From Sulfurimonas sp. (GTDB taxonomy: Bacteria > Campylobacterota > Campylobacteria > Campylobacterales > Sulfurimonadaceae), in NCBI GenBank assembly GCA_015487265.1, contig WFQD01000254.1, positions 1 through 43,805 of the forward strand: 43,805 nucleotides of DNA. The letters run 5' to 3'. Numbering within the stretch: position 1 is the stretch's first letter; each line of letters starts with the position of its first letter. Shown here piece by piece: positions 1,490 to 19,815 of the stretch. The position numbers were made by a program, and so were the translations under genes. The notes under the pieces were generated by a model that saw nothing but the letters and a program-made list of their open reading frames with translations, was not told the DNA's origin and did not search any database.

Positions 1490-2162
1490 TAAAAGCAACT
1501 TCAAACTCTAAGTAAGAGAGTGGATATTCTTGCATCAGCCGCTTTGTTTCTTTAAAATTTAACACTTTACGCGAACCACTCACCCCACTGCGTTTAATGT
1601 ACTGAAACATTTCCCTCACACTAGCAAATTCCATTGTATAGTGCACGACTTCAAAATCAGCATCAAAATATTTCTCTTGTAACTTTTGGATTTCTTTGGA
1701 TGATTGCAGTAATGATTGCAAAGAAGCTGTAGTGTTTAATGTTTTAAAAGTATTTGCTGTAAAAATCGCAAGTGCTATAGGAGCATTCAAAGTACGAATA
1801 CCTTGAAAAACTTTTTCTAAATCTTCTGCCCATTGGAGTGCTGATGCAGAAAAAATATAATCATACTGCTGTGTTTGGAGTTGTTCAAAAAGTGTTTTAT
1901 CATTAAAATCACCATAAAAAGTTTCGATATTTTCAGACTTCGGATGGAGTTCTAGCATCCCTTTTGCAAAATCAATACCTGTAAATTTTTCATAATGCCA
2001 ATCAATGCTTTTACAAATTGCACCACTTCCGCAACCTAAATCTAAAATATACTGAGGCTTACTCTTCACACTTGCAAGTAATTTGTGAACAACCTGCGTT
2101 TGAATAGTATTGAGGGATGCATAACTTAAAGCATGTTTTGAAAATTCTGAGCTGATTTTCAT
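1470..2162 (-). CDS. BioC-like SAM-dependent methyltransferase
   Basis: The 230-residue class I methyltransferase has motif I ILDLGCGSGA at about residues 39-48, an acidic loop (TGIDFAKGML) at about 61-70 and a motif IV region containing FSASALQWAEDL near 105-116. The SASALQW run and the length match BioC, which methylates malonyl-ACP to start biotin synthesis. The YIKRSGVSGSRK stretch near 187-198 is also BioC-like. The start codon overlaps the znuB stop as ATGA, so it is translated from the znu operon, an odd partner for a biotin gene. The 3' end overlaps the convergent ThiD2-like gene by 20 nt. Another small-molecule methyltransferase is possible. Confidence 0.7.
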   Translation of the reverse strand: MKISSEFSKHALSYASLNTIQTQVVHKLLASVKSKPQYILDLGCGSGAICKSIDWHYEKFTGIDFAKGMLELHPKSENIETFYGDFNDKTLFEQLQTQQYDYIFSASALQWAEDLEKVFQGIRTLNAPIALAIFTANTFKTLNTTASLQSLLQSSKEIQKLQEKYFDADFEVVHYTMEFASVREMFQYIKRSGVSGSRKVLNFKETKRLMQEYPLSYLEFEVAFITSGVK

Positions 2163-2956
2163 TTTTTATTGAGACTCAAAGAGAGAATAAAAATAGCAAT
2201 GACACACAAGACAATAGTTGCCCCAGAAGGCAAAGAGTAATAATATGAAAGTGTCATCCCAACAATCACACTTCCAAGTGCAATGAGCAGTGATATAAGT
2301 ACAGTTTTTAAAAAGCCAACTCTAAACTGCAACGCTGCCACAGTTGGAATAACCATCAAAGCACCAATAAGTAAAGACCCCACAACACGAATAGAAAGAG
2401 CAATAATAATTGCCACAACACTCACAAGCAGATAATTTAAAAATGTCACTTTTATACCACTTGTTTTTGCCACCTCTTCATCATAAGCTATAAAATAGAG
2501 CTCCTTTGAAAAAAGAAGGAGTAAAAGTAAAGCGACAGAACCAAAACCTACAATTGTAAGAATATCTGCTTGACTCACAGAAAGAATAGAACCAAAAAGG
2601 TAAGAAAAAAGTGAGTTGTTAAATGCACCTCCAAGCGAGACGATAATAATAGCCACAGCCAAAGACCCAGAGAGTAAAATCGCTAAAATGGCATCAGAAT
2701 AAAGTGCAAAAGTACTGCGTAAATACTCAATCATCCATGCTGATAAGACAGCAACAACAACAGCCATCCATAAAGGATTAAACCCAGCGACCAAACCAAC
2801 AGCAACACCCACTAAAGCAGAGTGTGCCAATGTCTCACTCATCATGGAGTAGCGTTTGAGTACAATGAAAGTACCACTAATAGAAGCAAGTGTTGCGATT
2901 AAAATACCAGCAAGGAATGCTCGTTGCATAAAATCGTATTCAAACATTTCAAACAT
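2159..2956 (-). CDS. znuB: Zinc ABC transporter permease ZnuB
   Basis: A 265-residue polytopic inner-membrane protein of the ABC-3 family with about eight hydrophobic helices. The conserved segment MSETLAHSALVGVA (about residues 38-51) and the GALMVIPTVAAL loop (about 198-209), which contacts the ATPase, are present. It forms the channel for zinc (or manganese) brought by the upstream-encoded ZnuA and powered by ZnuC. A TAGGAAAAAGT ribosome binding region precedes ATG and 8 nt separate it from znuC. Gene order znuA-znuC-znuB on the minus strand makes this a complete importer, unlike the second cluster at 14.4-17.6 kb. Confidence 0.9.
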   Translation of the reverse strand: MFEMFEYDFMQRAFLAGILIATLASISGTFIVLKRYSMMSETLAHSALVGVAVGLVAGFNPLWMAVVVAVLSAWMIEYLRSTFALYSDAILAILLSGSLAVAIIIVSLGGAFNNSLFSYLFGSILSVSQADILTIVGFGSVALLLLLLFSKELYFIAYDEEVAKTSGIKVTFLNYLLVSVVAIIIALSIRVVGSLLIGALMVIPTVAALQFRVGFLKTVLISLLIALGSVIVGMTLSYYYSLPSGATIVLCVIAIFILSLSLNKK

Positions 2957-2964
2957 ACTTTTTC

Positions 2965-3738
2965 CTAATGCTCATGGTGTTTATGCTGATGGATAGAGTG
3001 TGTTTCTATGCCGTAGAGTGCAGACATTTCATCACAACTGAGTGTCTCTTTTGGAGAGTTGCAAATGGTAATTTTTTGATTCACAGTAAAAAGCCTGCTA
3101 ATGTCATCTGCAATCACCCCAACATCATGGGTGATAAACAAAATAGTAATATTCTCTTCTTGATTCAACTTTCTTAAAAGTGCATAAAAACGCTTTTGCG
3201 ATACCATATCGACACCGGTATTTGGTTCATCTAAAATTAAAATTTCTGGTTTTGAAGCGAGTGCCCGAGCTATCATAGCGCGTTGACGCTGTCCACCAGA
3301 GAGCTTGCCAACCATCTTCTCTTTTAGGTCTAAAACATCCATCTTGAGCATACTATCTTCTATAAGTTGCTTCTCCTCTTTACTCAAAATTGAAAAAAAA
3401 CTGTGTTTTGAGGTCATGCCCATTTTCACAATATCTTCAACAGTTGCAGGAAAATTCTCATCTACATGCGATGCACGCTGGGGGACATAGCCTATTTTCT
3501 CCCAATTTTTAAATGCTTTGAGTTTTTTCCCATAAAGCTTTATTTCACCACTTGTTGGTTGTGTAAGCCCTAAAAGTATACGAGCCAATGTTGTTTTTCC
3601 TCCGCCATTGGGTCCAATAATAGCAATATACTCCCCATTAAAAATTTCTAATGAAACATTGGAGAGAATATGCTGTGAAGCAGCACTAAAATTGACATTT
3701 TTCACATCAAAAATAGGTACTTTAAAGTCTAATGGCAA
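2965..3738 (-). CDS. znuC: Zinc ABC transporter ATP-binding protein ZnuC
   Basis: A 257-residue ABC ATPase. Walker A GPNGGGKTT is at about residues 42-50, the LSGGQRQR signature near 146-153, Walker B ILILDEPNTGVD near 165-176 and the switch histidine in FITHD near 201-205. The C-terminus is histidine rich (HSIHQHKHHEH), common in ZnuC proteins and probably zinc-binding. The start is TTG at 3738, preceded by AAGG at suitable spacing and overlapping the znuA stop by 10 nt. As the only ATPase of this type in the window, it is also the candidate motor for the orphan permease at 16906-17640. Confidence 0.9.
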   Translation of the reverse strand: MPLDFKVPIFDVKNVNFSAASQHILSNVSLEIFNGEYIAIIGPNGGGKTTLARILLGLTQPTSGEIKLYGKKLKAFKNWEKIGYVPQRASHVDENFPATVEDIVKMGMTSKHSFFSILSKEEKQLIEDSMLKMDVLDLKEKMVGKLSGGQRQRAMIARALASKPEILILDEPNTGVDMVSQKRFYALLRKLNQEENITILFITHDVGVIADDISRLFTVNQKITICNSPKETLSCDEMSALYGIETHSIHQHKHHEH

Positions 3739-4610
3739 GAGAGTGCCTTAGAAAGTTTTTGCAGATTGATTTGCATCATTGCCTCATAACTTAAATTTTC
3801 TTTTGCCTCATCTGCTGTAATATTGCCAAGTGGCTTTAAAACATCTACTGCTGTGTGTGTTGCGTTTGCTATACCTTTGATTGCCTTGTCACTTGCAAAA
3901 TCTTCAAAAAATACAGTGGAGACATTATGCTCTTTAATCGTCTCTATTAAGCGAATAATATTTTTTGCATTCGGCTGTGCTTCAGGAGACAAGCCACTTA
4001 AAGAAGCAACACCAAAACCATATTTTTTTGCCAAATAACCAAAAGCATTATGATTAACAATAATAGTATCTCGATTACAATGTGCTAATGTGATTTTAAA
4101 TTTTTCATCAAGCTTTTCTAGCATTTCAAGATATGCTTTTTCGTTTTTTATATATTTTTGCTTATATTTTGGAGTAATCTGTATTAATTCTCGTGTGATG
4201 AGTGTTACTGCCTTTTTCATATTTTGAAAATCAAGCCAGTAATGCGGGTCAATAGCCCTTGTTTTTTCAAAATGATTCAAAGCGACATATTGACTCATAT
4301 TTACAGCTCTTTGCTTAAAATGAAAACCCGCTGTCCATGGTTCAAGTCCCGCTCCACTATAGAAAATCAAAGCACTTTTTTCTATACTTGCGACAATCTT
4401 TGGTGTCGGCTCATACTCATGGGGTTCTACACCAAAAGGTAAGATATGGACAATTTTTACAGAGTCTCCTGCAATGTGTTTAACAATATCATAAAGAGGG
4501 AAAGTCGTAACACTTACAATAGGGCGAGTCTCTTTTTGGTGTTTTGTACATCCCGTACCAAAAATTGTTAAAAAAAGAAAAAAAAGTCCTATTTTTATAC
4601 TGCTATGCAT
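3729..4610 (-). CDS. znuA: Zinc-binding lipoprotein ZnuA
   Basis: This 293-residue cluster A-I substrate-binding protein has a hydrophobic signal ending in GTGC, so C21 is the likely lipidated residue. Metal-ligand positions expected for ZnuA are visible: H64 (EPHEYEP), H123 (DPHYWLD), H187 (VNHNAFGY) and acidic residues in the FFEDFASD loop near 236. The His-rich loop between the first two ligands, common in larger ZnuA proteins, is absent. It delivers periplasmic zinc to ZnuBC, first in a minus-strand operon znuA-znuC-znuB-bioC-like. Mn or Fe cannot be excluded as substrate; the three-histidine set favours zinc. Confidence 0.9.
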   Translation of the reverse strand: MHSSIKIGLFFLFLTIFGTGCTKHQKETRPIVSVTTFPLYDIVKHIAGDSVKIVHILPFGVEPHEYEPTPKIVASIEKSALIFYSGAGLEPWTAGFHFKQRAVNMSQYVALNHFEKTRAIDPHYWLDFQNMKKAVTLITRELIQITPKYKQKYIKNEKAYLEMLEKLDEKFKITLAHCNRDTIIVNHNAFGYLAKKYGFGVASLSGLSPEAQPNAKNIIRLIETIKEHNVSTVFFEDFASDKAIKGIANATHTAVDVLKPLGNITADEAKENLSYEAMMQINLQKLSKALSCH

Positions 4611-14438: not shown

Positions 14439-14717
14439 ATGAAACATCAGTTTGTCCGCAAGTATTTTAGCATTGTTCTGCTTCTTGCTTCATTTATGGA
14501 GAGTTTTCACCATCATCATGATGGACTCCAACATAGTGATTGTCAGATTTGTAGCATTGCTGCAAGTATTGCCGATGCTGATACTCCCGTAGAAGTACAC
14601 TACCTTAGCGAACTTTTCCTGCAAAGTGAAGCGACACTTGCACCCCTACAAAATTCTATCGTGGCTTCTGTTCAAGACCACTACAAATCAAGAGCCCCTC
14701 CGCACATACTCCTTTAA
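14439..14717 (+). CDS. Small exported His-rich protein of the zinc cluster
   Basis: The 92-residue protein has a basic, hydrophobic N-terminus (about residues 1-22, KYFSIVLLLASFMESF) suggesting export or a membrane anchor. A metal-binding-looking stretch follows, with four consecutive histidines and then HSDCQIC (about 32-38). It resembles the short DUF2946-like proteins with a histidine run and a CxxC pair that lie next to metal-uptake genes. It directly precedes the porin, ZnuA and ZnuB genes, so a role in periplasmic zinc handling is inferred, not shown. The frame is intact, unlike the next two genes. Confidence 0.65.
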   Translation: MKHQFVRKYFSIVLLLASFMESFHHHHDGLQHSDCQICSIAASIADADTPVEVHYLSELFLQSEATLAPLQNSIVASVQDHYKSRAPPHILL

Positions 14718-14761: not shown

Positions 14762-16024
14762 ATGCAAAAAAAATTGCTATTATCACTTTTTGCTTTTACA
14801 AGTTTACTTGCAGATAGTGAAGTGGAGATACTCAAACAACAGCTCCTCCAACAACAAAAAATTACCCAAAAGTTACTCAAACGCATTGAAGCACTCGAAG
14901 TCAAATAAAAAACAGTCGTCCATACAGTACAAGCACAAGCTGCTGTAAAAAATGTCAATACAAGTGCAAGTTTTTCACAAAACGCTTATCTACCAGACAT
15001 CGCCCTTGTTTTAAATATGTCGGCAGTCTCTCGAAATGTTGATAACACGGTTTATAATAGTTTTGAGATTCCAGGATTTTTAGCTTCTGAAGATGCAGAA
15101 CTTCCATTTAATGCAGACAAAGGCTTCAACCTCAATTATGCCGAAGTTGCAATGCACTCAACTGTTGACCCTTACTTTGATGCTTTTGCTGTTTTTCACC
15201 TCCATCCTGCTGCATTTGAAATTGAAGAAGCTTATGTAAAAACACGAGCCTTACCCTATGCACTCAGTGTCAAAGCTGGGAAATTCAAAAGTGCCTTTGG
15301 TCGTATAAATGCCAAACACCACCACACATGGCACTTTGATTCACAGCCTATCATCTATAAATCACTCTTTGGTCCTGATGCTATCAGCGACCCAGGAATC
15401 CAACTCCAGTGGGTTGCTCCAACAGATACTTACCTCATGGTAGGGGTCGAAGCAATGCAAGGCACAAATGGTAGAAGTTTTGGAGATACGAAGTCAAATA
15501 ACCTCTATGTAGGTTACCTAAAATCAAGTGTAGATGTGGGAGACAATCTTTCTATTCTTGGTGGAGTGAGCATTGCCCATGGGACAAATGTAGATAACAA
15601 CACCTCAAACCCAACAAATGTTTATGGTGCTGACCTCACACTCCGTGAACAGTTAGGAAGCTATAGTGCATTAATATGGCAAAGTGAATATCTCTACAGA
15701 AACAAAGATGTTGGGACACGAAAAGATAAACAAGCAGGTCTGTACAGTGAACTTATCTACCAAATTGACAACAATTATGCTACAGGTTTCCGTTATGATG
15801 CCATCACAAAAAATGATACAGACTTAACAGCTTATACGGTCGATACCAACAATTTACGAAGATATACAGCGATGGTTGAGTATAAACCTTTTCCTATGTC
15901 AAGACTGAGACTCTCTTACACAAATGACCAAACAAAAGTTATCTCAAACAAGAGAAAAACCATCAATGAAGTAATGCTAACACTAAACATTGCAGCAGGT
16001 GCACATGGCGCACACGATTACTAG
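14762..16024 (+). pseudogene. Zinc-cluster outer-membrane porin with in-frame TAA
   Basis: One continuous frame encodes about 420 codons interrupted once, by TAA at codon 49 (14906-14908). Before the stop are a good ribosome binding site (GAAGGA), a signal peptide (MQKKLLLSLFAFTSLLA) and a short coiled coil. After it the frame continues with a beta-barrel that has the family-like segment FGRINAKHHHTWHF (about residues 180-193) and a typical alternating C-terminal strand pattern. I recognise this family as porins found beside ZnuA/ZnuB genes in sulfur-oxidising Campylobacterota. A GAA, AAA or CAA to TAA change would explain the stop. Whether the gene is dead, read through or mis-sequenced is open. 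Confidence 0.75.
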
Positions 16025-16033
16025 GAAGCAACT

Positions 16034-16918
16034 ATGAAAAAAATACTCTTACTAACAACACTTCTCACAACAATGCTTTTTGCCTCACTACGAGTCGATA
16101 CAACATACTCTACTATGGGTCTCATCACACAAAAGATTGGTGGTGATTTAGTTAACGTCACGGTACTGGGAAGTGCAAAGTATGACCCACACTTTATCGT
16201 ACTAAAGCCCTCACTTATCTCTAAACTTCGCCGTGCTGATTTACTCATCATGAATGGAGGGGGTTTAGAGCTTGGTTGGTTGCCTCCACTTCTTAGAGCT
16301 GCGAACAATGCAAAAATCCAAAATGGGATGGTAGGCTTACTCGATATGTCACACTACATCAGTATGATAGATGTCCCGAGTTCTGTCTCTCGTGCCTTTG
16401 GTGATGTCCATGCACAAGGAAATCCTCACTTTGCAACCGACCCCCATCAAGTCCTTGTCATGGCAAAAGCCATCAAAGAAAAGCTCATATAACTTGACCC
16501 TGAAAATGAAACAATATATCAAGCAAATTTTGATGCCTTTACAACAAAGTGGCAAAAATATCTCCAAAGTTTTGATGCAAAAATGCAAACTTGTCCTACA
16601 AAAAAAGTTGTTCAGTACCATGAGCTCTATAACTATTTTCTCAAACGCTATGACATCCAAAACATTGGAAACATTGAACCCATTCCTGGGATTTCACCGA
16701 GTTCTAAACACACTTTAGCCCTCATTATGAGTATGCGACAAAACCATGTGAAAACCATTTTACAAGATGTGTACCATGAGAAAAAAACAGCGAAGTTTAT
16801 TGCAAGCAAAACAGGAGCAAAAGTGCAAGTTATTCCCCATGACATTCGTTCAGTCAAAGGAAGCAACACTTTAGAGGAATTCTACAACATTATCGGCAAA
16901 AGAATATGCAACCAGTAG
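16034..16918 (+). pseudogene. Second ZnuA-type substrate-binding protein with in-frame TAA
   Basis: The frame encodes 294 codons with one internal TAA at codon 153 (16490-16492) and no frameshift. A signal peptide (residues 1-17, ending LFAS) precedes a cluster A-I fold. Candidate zinc ligands are H53 (DPHFIVL), H132 (NPHFATD) and, after the stop, H196 (QYHELY). The stop falls in a run KEKLI-stop-LDPENE where a glutamate codon is likely ancestral (GAA to TAA). Without readthrough the product would be the N-terminal lobe only and could not bind zinc normally. The end overlaps the permease start by 13 nt, so the operon architecture is intact. Confidence 0.8.
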
Positions 16919-17640
16919 CCATCCTCTGGCCTGCCTTTTTTTTAGCCATTTTACTCGTCTATATCCATGCCATTTTTGGTGTGGAGATTATCAAACGTGG
17001 GGTCATTTTTACAGACCTTGCCATCGGGCAAATCGCAGCGATTGGTATGGCTTTGAGTGTTGCATTTTTGGGAGGTGAGTACCAAACACCGCTCACACTT
17101 TTATTTGCCATTTTTGCTGCACTCCTCATTGCTTGGGCGACGAAACGGGTGAAAAATGTCGAAGCTTTTATCGGTTTACTCTATGCCCTTGGTATCTCTT
17201 CGATTATGCTTGTCCTTGCCAAAAGTAGTGAAGGCACCGAACTCTTTTCTAAACTCAGTGCTGCAGATATTCTCTTCACATCTCCTCACGATTTACTCAT
17301 AGATGCAAGCATATACATCCCCATATCCTTAGTCATGTTTTTTATCTATCCTCGCTTGCAAGGTACACTCAAGGAGCTGACATTTTTTATCATGCTTGCG
17401 TTTACTGTCACTTCATCGGTACAATCAGCAGGAGTTTTAGTTGTATTTGCACTCCTCATAGCACCCGCTTATTCAGCAATCATACAAAACAGATTGAAGC
17501 CTTTAACTTTTGCTTGGATGTTTGGAAGTTTAGGCATTATCGTAGCACTTTTTGTTTCGTATAATTTTGATTTACCTACGGGTTACACCATTATTTTTGT
17601 GACAATTGTATCAGCTCTTTTGAGTACTCTTTTTTATTAA
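16906..17640 (+). CDS. Second ZnuB-type metal ABC permease
   Basis: A 244-residue ABC-3 family permease with about eight hydrophobic helices. It has VEIIKRGVIFTDLAIGQIAAIG (family cytoplasmic loop, about residues 22-43) and VFALLIAPAYSAI (about 180-192), equivalent to the ATPase-contact region. The frame is intact, unlike the two genes before it. No ATPase gene is encoded beside it, so it would have to use ZnuC from 2965-3738 or one encoded elsewhere. It starts inside the second znuA gene and is probably translationally coupled to it, so the upstream nonsense codon may reduce its expression. Confidence 0.85.
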   Translation: MQPVAILWPAFFLAILLVYIHAIFGVEIIKRGVIFTDLAIGQIAAIGMALSVAFLGGEYQTPLTLLFAIFAALLIAWATKRVKNVEAFIGLLYALGISSIMLVLAKSSEGTELFSKLSAADILFTSPHDLLIDASIYIPISLVMFFIYPRLQGTLKELTFFIMLAFTVTSSVQSAGVLVVFALLIAPAYSAIIQNRLKPLTFAWMFGSLGIIVALFVSYNFDLPTGYTIIFVTIVSALLSTLFY

Positions 17641-17697: not shown

Positions 17698-19815
17698 ATG
17701 CCAATAGCGACAGAAGCCTTTAAAGAGCGTTCAAACATTACTTCCTTAGCACTTTTAGATAAAGAGCATCTTGCCTATTCTAGTGTCTATCATGGCATTC
17801 GAATTTTGCAACTCTCTGACTACAAGACAAAGCATAAAATCACCTTTGATGAACTCTCCTCTAAAAGTACTGCGTTTTGTTTTAATGATGACAAATCACT
17901 CATGGCATTTGCGACACACAACAGCATTTATATCCTTAGCATACTCACAAAAAAAATCATTAAAACCATTAAAGTGGGCAAAGCCATTGTGCTCAAACTC
18001 ATTTTTTGCGATAAATATATTATTGCAGGAACTGACAAAGGCAGAGTCCTCCAGTACCGCTACAACAACTCTACACAACTCGCACGGATTTGCTCTTTTA
18101 TTCCTGCAAACAAAAGAGATACAACAAGCTATGTGAGTGCATTTAGTGTGTGTGAAAACTATTTAGCTTCTACGGGTCATGGGGGTGCACTCTACCTCTT
18201 TGATGTTTTCTCTCATGCACAAAGAAGAACACTTATTCCATCAGGTAATCGCATCGATGCCTTACATTTTCTTGACAAAGAACGGCTTGTGAGTGCAGAT
18301 ATTCATGGCAATATCATCGTCCATTTTCTCTTAGACCCCGATAAAAATGTCACCATTGATGCCCCTTTTGAAAATGTTAGACAAATTATTGCTATGCCAA
18401 ATCCGCGCTTTATTGTCATTCTTGGAAAAGAGTCATACATTAGTCTCATTGACATAGAAGATGCAAAAGTTGCACAAGTCAAGTATGTACAATTTCCTGC
18501 AACCCCAGTAGAAATGCTCCTTGTTCATGAAGAACTTTTACTTGTTGCCCTTGCAAATCAAACAGTAATGGAAGTCAAACTTATCAGTGCAAAACAACTC
18601 CGTACAGCACTTATCTATAATGAAATTGTAGAAGCATATGACTTAGTGGAACAAGAATTGATGTTGCGTTATACACGAGAGTATAAACTCCTTGAAAAAC
18701 GTTTCAAAAGCATTTACGAAGAAGCCGCTGCTGCTTTAGTGAGTCAAAACAAACCCCTTGCACTCAAAACACTCAACATTGTCAAAGATGTTCCTGAAAA
18801 GAAAAAAGAGATTGATGCCCTATTTCGTGCCTTTGAAGAGTATAGTCGCTTTAAAGTTATTTACTTAGAGAAAAAATATGCCCATGCTTATGCTATGGCT
18901 GAAAAATACCCACCCTTAAAACTCTCTCCTCTTTTTAAAAAAATTGAAGAGGCTTGGATAGACAACTTTACCAATGCACAACGACATGTTTTAATGGGCA
19001 ATGTAGGCAATGCACAAGTACTGCTTGATGAGTATATTACTATCATTTCAAAAAGAGAGATTATCACCCTTTTACTGCGTCAAGATAAAGATTACATAGC
19101 ATTTCTTAAAGCAATTAGCGAAAAAGATGCACAAACAGTAGAGGATTTAGCCTATAAACATCCAAATTTCACAACAACCCCTACCTATATCGCCTTAAAA
19201 AATTCTACGAAAAAAAATATGCAGAGTGTCGAAAAATACATTCATGAAGGCAAGCTCCTCCAAGCAAAAGAGTTACTCCAGCAAATCAAACCAACACTCT
19301 CTCTCAAAAAAGAGTTAAAAAAACTCCACCGCAGACTACAAGAGATGGCACAACTCAAACATGCTTATAAGAATAACGATTTTAAAACTTGTTATGAACT
19401 TTTAGATACCTATTATTATCTCAATACCACACAATTAGGTGTCCTACTCAATAAACACTGGATAGAACTCATCGACAAGTGTGAGGAGTATGCCCTCAAA
19501 GCCAACCCAAATGCCATTAAAACAACACTTAACACCCTTCTGCTTGTTACAACACGGACAAGCCGTATCGGTGATTTACTCAGAGTGAGCTTTCATGCAA
19601 AAATCAAAGCGTATTTAGTCAAACGCAGTCTCAAGGGAGCCCAAAATATTATCTACTCCTATATTGATATTTTTGGGAGTGATTGTGAAATAAAAAGCCT
19701 CATGACTCTCTATGAAAAACTCTCTAAAAAAAGACTTGCAATCACTCAAGATGGCAATAATATCATCGATAGAGATAAATGGATTAATTCTGAAGTTTTT
19801 ACTCAGCCATCATAG
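17698..19815 (+). CDS. Large WD40-like/helical-repeat cytoplasmic protein
   Basis: The 705-residue protein has no signal peptide or membrane helix. Residues 1 to about 300 are beta-rich with repeated blocks (for example FNDDKSLMAFATHNSIYILS, GTDKGRVLQYRY, LASTGHGGALYLFD, VSADIHGNIIVHFL) typical of a seven-bladed WD40-type propeller. Residues about 310-705 are helical, with TPR-like pairs such as KPLALKTLNIVKDVP. The propeller plus helical solenoid suggests a scaffold or protein-interaction role; function unknown. It follows the zinc cluster by 57 nt, so co-transcription is possible. The last 17 nt overlap the convergent fliI gene. Confidence 0.75.
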   Translation: MPIATEAFKERSNITSLALLDKEHLAYSSVYHGIRILQLSDYKTKHKITFDELSSKSTAFCFNDDKSLMAFATHNSIYILSILTKKIIKTIKVGKAIVLKLIFCDKYIIAGTDKGRVLQYRYNNSTQLARICSFIPANKRDTTSYVSAFSVCENYLASTGHGGALYLFDVFSHAQRRTLIPSGNRIDALHFLDKERLVSADIHGNIIVHFLLDPDKNVTIDAPFENVRQIIAMPNPRFIVILGKESYISLIDIEDAKVAQVKYVQFPATPVEMLLVHEELLLVALANQTVMEVKLISAKQLRTALIYNEIVEAYDLVEQELMLRYTREYKLLEKRFKSIYEEAAAALVSQNKPLALKTLNIVKDVPEKKKEIDALFRAFEEYSRFKVIYLEKKYAHAYAMAEKYPPLKLSPLFKKIEEAWIDNFTNAQRHVLMGNVGNAQVLLDEYITIISKREIITLLLRQDKDYIAFLKAISEKDAQTVEDLAYKHPNFTTTPTYIALKNSTKKNMQSVEKYIHEGKLLQAKELLQQIKPTLSLKKELKKLHRRLQEMAQLKHAYKNNDFKTCYELLDTYYYLNTTQLGVLLNKHWIELIDKCEEYALKANPNAIKTTLNTLLLVTTRTSRIGDLLRVSFHAKIKAYLVKRSLKGAQNIIYSYIDIFGSDCEIKSLMTLYEKLSKKRLAITQDGNNIIDRDKWINSEVFTQPS

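Follow-up and report, generated by a model that had tools for sequence, protein, structure and literature searches.

The window analysed here is an entire contig of 43.8 kb (43,805 nucleotides) from a vent-type, Sulfurimonas-like bacterium, in a MAG-like assembly of 3.05 Mb that comprises 491 contigs and shows 7.9% contamination. Its forward strand carries an operon in which two adjacent genes, encoding a putative outer-membrane protein and a ZnuA-type metal-binding protein, each contain one in-frame TAA codon, and its reverse strand carries a second, complete zinc transporter:

14439..14717, + strand: first gene of the operon, intact, encoding a small His- and Cys-containing protein (92 aa)
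14762..16024, + strand: interrupted gene for a putative outer-membrane beta-barrel protein, in the same operon as znuA2 (420 codons)
14906..14908, + strand: in-frame TAA in the outer-membrane protein gene, codon 49; a Gln codon in the nearest relative
16034..16918, + strand: znuA2, interrupted gene for a ZnuA-type periplasmic metal-binding protein (294 codons)
16490..16492, + strand: in-frame TAA in znuA2, codon 153; Gln, Glu, Leu or Lys in 29 aligned relatives
16906..17640, + strand: znuB2, intact gene for an ABC-3 family (ZnuB-type) permease, under purifying selection
2159..2956, - strand: znuB1, permease gene of the intact znuABC
2965..3738, - strand: znuC, ATPase gene of the intact znuABC
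3729..4610, - strand: znuA1, intact second ZnuA gene, belonging to the complete znuABC and a distant paralogue

The order of the operon (92-residue His/Cys protein, outer-membrane protein, ZnuA-type binding protein, ZnuB-type permease) is identical in the examined relatives. As in zinc uptake of the ZnuABC/AztABC type (PF01297, PF00950), an ABC-3 permease is combined with a binding protein that has conserved metal-ligand histidines. Canonical znuABC loci, however, hold binding protein, permease and ATPase together, whereas no ATPase gene adjoins znuA2-znuB2 in the window or in the examined relatives (L037-L043), and genes for an outer-membrane protein and a small His/Cys protein are present instead. 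An ABC importer permease without a binding protein and an ATPase imports no metal, and the znuA2-znuB2 operon may use the ATPase encoded in the separate znuABC, which lies complete on the same contig (2159-4610). The 92-residue product of the first gene contains HHHH and HSDCQIC motifs and has no Pfam or NCBIfam match.

Two nonsense codons in adjacent genes

Positions 16490-16492 hold a TAA that lies within the znuA2 reading frame (16034-16918) as codon 153 of 294, as the initial annotation had read it. Translated through this stop, znuA2 matches Pfam ZnuA (PF01297) with 161 bits against a cut-off of 29, over residues 23-270 and hence both lobes, and its product resembles 2ov1 and other zinc-binding proteins of known structure on either side of the stop. 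The accompanying claim that both halves belong to a substrate-binding fold, with zinc ligands on each side, also holds, with His53 and His132 ahead of the stop and His196 and His269/Asp270 behind it. The first three histidines align with those of 2ov1 in DPH, DPH and FHP motifs, while the fourth ligand (269-270) falls outside the 2ov1 alignment. Alignment against relatives reveals no frameshift in znuA2. Copies of the gene are found in 85 of the 120 genus genomes searched (41-88% identical), none of which bears a stop; Gln predominates at codon 153, with Glu, Leu and Lys as the other residues. The genome contains no second intact znuA2, the only further ZnuA match being the distant paralogue znuA1. 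With a premature stop, intact orthologues and no spare intact copy, znuA2 is a candidate nonsense pseudogene.

The outer-membrane protein gene (14762-16024) similarly contains a single TAA but no frameshift relative to its relatives, and a stop occurs in none of the other 24 aligned genes. Apart from their stops, both interrupted genes have retained their full length. Its product has no solved relative by sequence, and the Pfam porin family BBP2 is matched by one of 15 aligned members. Two nonsense codons (49 and 153) without any frameshift in adjacent genes are thus confirmed, and so is the intact permease downstream, whose frame at 16906-17640 is open and conserved. Both stops are real in the assembly and specific to this genome. 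The outer-membrane protein would end after 48 residues, with little beyond a signal peptide and linker, and ZnuA2 would end after 152 residues, retaining a single lobe with half the metal ligands if it follows the ZnuA fold. Since the former would be so truncated and the latter one-lobed, neither product is expected to work, and we infer that both genes have lost their function. Restart of translation downstream of the znuA2 stop was rejected, as the nearest start codon lies 30 codons further on and the resulting product would lack a signal peptide.

The genome-wide count of in-frame stops that the initial annotation had recommended was run on a 317-kb sample, in which 129 genes with 44,290 codons were aligned to the genes of the genome G060 and to roughly 0.8 Mb from G112, a near-closed genome. 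Three of these genes contain a real internal stop, in each case TAA, and two of the three belong to this operon. The third is an SCP2-like gene (L102:905-1294, G000 contig C179) that is interrupted at L102:1117, codon 60 of 130, and intact in G060; its stop codon differs from the G060 codon at more than one base. No frameshift was found in the 129 genes, a control of 70 G060 genes yielded no convincing internal stop, and a hexamer-model scan that used no reference indicated the same cases. Apparent stops in L083, L090, L100, L109 and L088 were discarded: all fall in the first 18 residues of their alignments and were taken for overextended reference starts rather than broken genes. If three of 129 genes are broken, two of them will be neighbours by chance in about 4.5% of cases, which makes the clustering no more than suggestive. 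The proposition that two stops in one operon are unlikely by chance therefore survives in a weak form, two of the three real stops being adjacent, and no stronger.

Selection, age and dispensability

When this lineage was given its own omega in a codon model, lineage and background values were 0.124 versus 0.089 for znuA2, 0.108 versus 0.081 for the outer-membrane protein gene and 0.055 versus 0.057 for the permease gene, with no significant difference in any of the three. Neutral evolution along the whole branch was rejected by the codon model. Among residues invariant in all other aligned copies, one of 200 is altered here over both interrupted genes (none of 106 in the outer-membrane protein, one of 94 in ZnuA2, Pro57 to Leu), and the upper 95% bound on divergence since loss is about 1% neutral. 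It follows from the unraised dN/dS and the single invariant change that either the stops are very young or the genes are not truly lost; dN/dS cannot separate recent loss from retained function, because both predict a low value. The relaxed selection after a first hit that had been suggested for this locus is compatible with these results, but it finds no echo in dN/dS or in the invariant residues, and any relaxation is too young to have left a visible trace.

Loss of the outer-membrane protein gene apparently also occurs elsewhere in the genus. A match to it is absent from 17 of 79 good genus genomes, a count in which distant copies could have escaped detection, and the single-contig genome G094, which represents another species, carries a copy (L041:6461-7725) with a frameshift from a 1-nt deletion, directly followed by TAA, whereas the gene is intact in its relative G011 (L042). 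The genus can do without the operon, and the contig also encodes an entire znuABC that can take over metal uptake, so that losing the operon would be tolerable.

Taken together, these observations make it probable that an accessory metal-uptake operon in a Sulfurimonas-like lineage was very recently inactivated by two separate nonsense substitutions. Some features fit this explanation less well: with two nonsense changes and no more than one missense change among the invariant sites, the pattern is slightly richer in nonsense than neutral decay predicts (probability 0.06-0.08), the small protein and the permease are free of decay signs, and the fragmentation and contamination of the assembly (491 contigs, 7.9%) leave room for a consensus error or a strain mixture. 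We infer that both inactivating alleles are genuine and have reached fixation, although they may still be segregating. Recent single-stop nonsense pseudogenes of bacteria and segregating nonsense alleles likewise combine one premature stop with a dispensable, otherwise intact gene and stop-free orthologues; the present case differs in having two stops, in adjacent genes of one operon, with no measurable decay so far. It has the appearance of ordinary gene loss that happened very recently, or of uncertainty in the assembly, rather than of a new reading of stop codons. Its meaning beyond this genome is small: it adds one more accessory transport operon with very young nonsense alleles.

Competing explanations and genomic context

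The main rival to recent inactivation is a consensus artefact, in which at least one of the stops is an error of sequencing or assembly, or a minor allele from mixed strains that were merged into one consensus, and the genes themselves are intact. We consider this unlikely, yet it carries real weight: the assembly is fragmented and contaminated, and neither gene has decayed. The spurious pseudogenes that assembly errors create (Cooley and Wright 2024, PMC11017572) similarly present an internal stop in a fragmented draft within an otherwise undecayed gene, but here the sample has no general excess of stops or frameshifts. With one further real stop and no frameshift in the 129 sampled genes, the assembly is not generally error-rich, and the zero frameshifts rule out an error-rich assembly as the source of the stops. 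Moreover, both changes are clean single-codon substitutions, on a 43.8-kb contig whose gene content near the operon is like that of G060.

Alternatively, low-level or condition-dependent readthrough of UAA could preserve the function of both proteins, a reading that the retained invariant residues and the low dN/dS would fit. In-frame stops with low dN/dS are widespread in bacterial genes, and many have been interpreted as readthrough (Belinky et al. 2021, PMC7918605); the present genes share with those cases the mark of purifying selection on both flanks of the stop. The stops described here are, however, confined to one genome, so their youth explains the low dN/dS without readthrough, and young stops predict it equally well. 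No aligned relative has a stop at either site, in contrast to the conservation expected of programmed readthrough or recoding, and no RNA fold 3' of either stop beats shuffled sequence. TAA is also the normal and commonest terminator, ending 119 of the 197 long genes in the sample. The initial annotation had advised a search for an ochre suppressor tRNA; a pattern search and a family search whose list ended at 30 tRNAs, over sampled contigs of at least about 3 kb, found no UUA-anticodon tRNA. As these searches likewise missed tRNA-Gln, this absence is no proof, but together with the prevalence of TAA as a terminator it leaves recoding unsupported. The condition-dependent readthrough proposed in that annotation thus receives no positive support, and we regard readthrough that preserves both proteins as improbable. 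We regard as similarly improbable the related idea that a low level of readthrough leaves enough outer-membrane protein and ZnuA2 for the operon to be turned down rather than lost. The case also serves as a caution that low dN/dS flanking an in-frame stop is by itself no argument for readthrough. If both stops were fixed in the population and full-length protein were present, this operon would offer a clean natural test case for UAA readthrough.

A variant of recent inactivation invokes selection, with metal excess, or phages that use the outer-membrane protein, favouring repeated knock-outs of the operon. The near absence of missense decay beside two nonsense changes would suit such a history, as would the patchy distribution of the operon in the genus and the independent frameshift in the G094 outer-membrane protein gene. 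The numbers are small, however, the permease is unaffected and the frameshift in G094 could be erroneous too, and we consider selected loss improbable. Reassignment of UAA to an amino acid, suggested by the fact that all three real internal stops in the sample are TAA, is rejected as next to impossible, because TAA terminates most of the long genes in the sample (119 of 197), is missing from the interior of 126 of the 129 aligned genes and has no cognate tRNA among the 30 listed.

An Rfam search of the window gave no match, and a viral contig scan found nothing. The gene content flanking the operon agrees with that of G060. A WD-repeat-like gene 3' of the operon (17698-19815) is 95% identical to its counterpart in G119 and 76% identical to that in G060; as this gene is nearer to G119 and the operon nearer to G060, local recombination is probable. 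A mosaic origin of the operon was considered as the cause of the stops and set aside, since recombination, though probable here, leaves the stops unexplained. The nearest named relative is the Sulfurimonas sp. MAG isolate 131-447, and its sample label '131-447' recurs in a study of deposits from deep-sea hydrothermal vents (PMC9793634).
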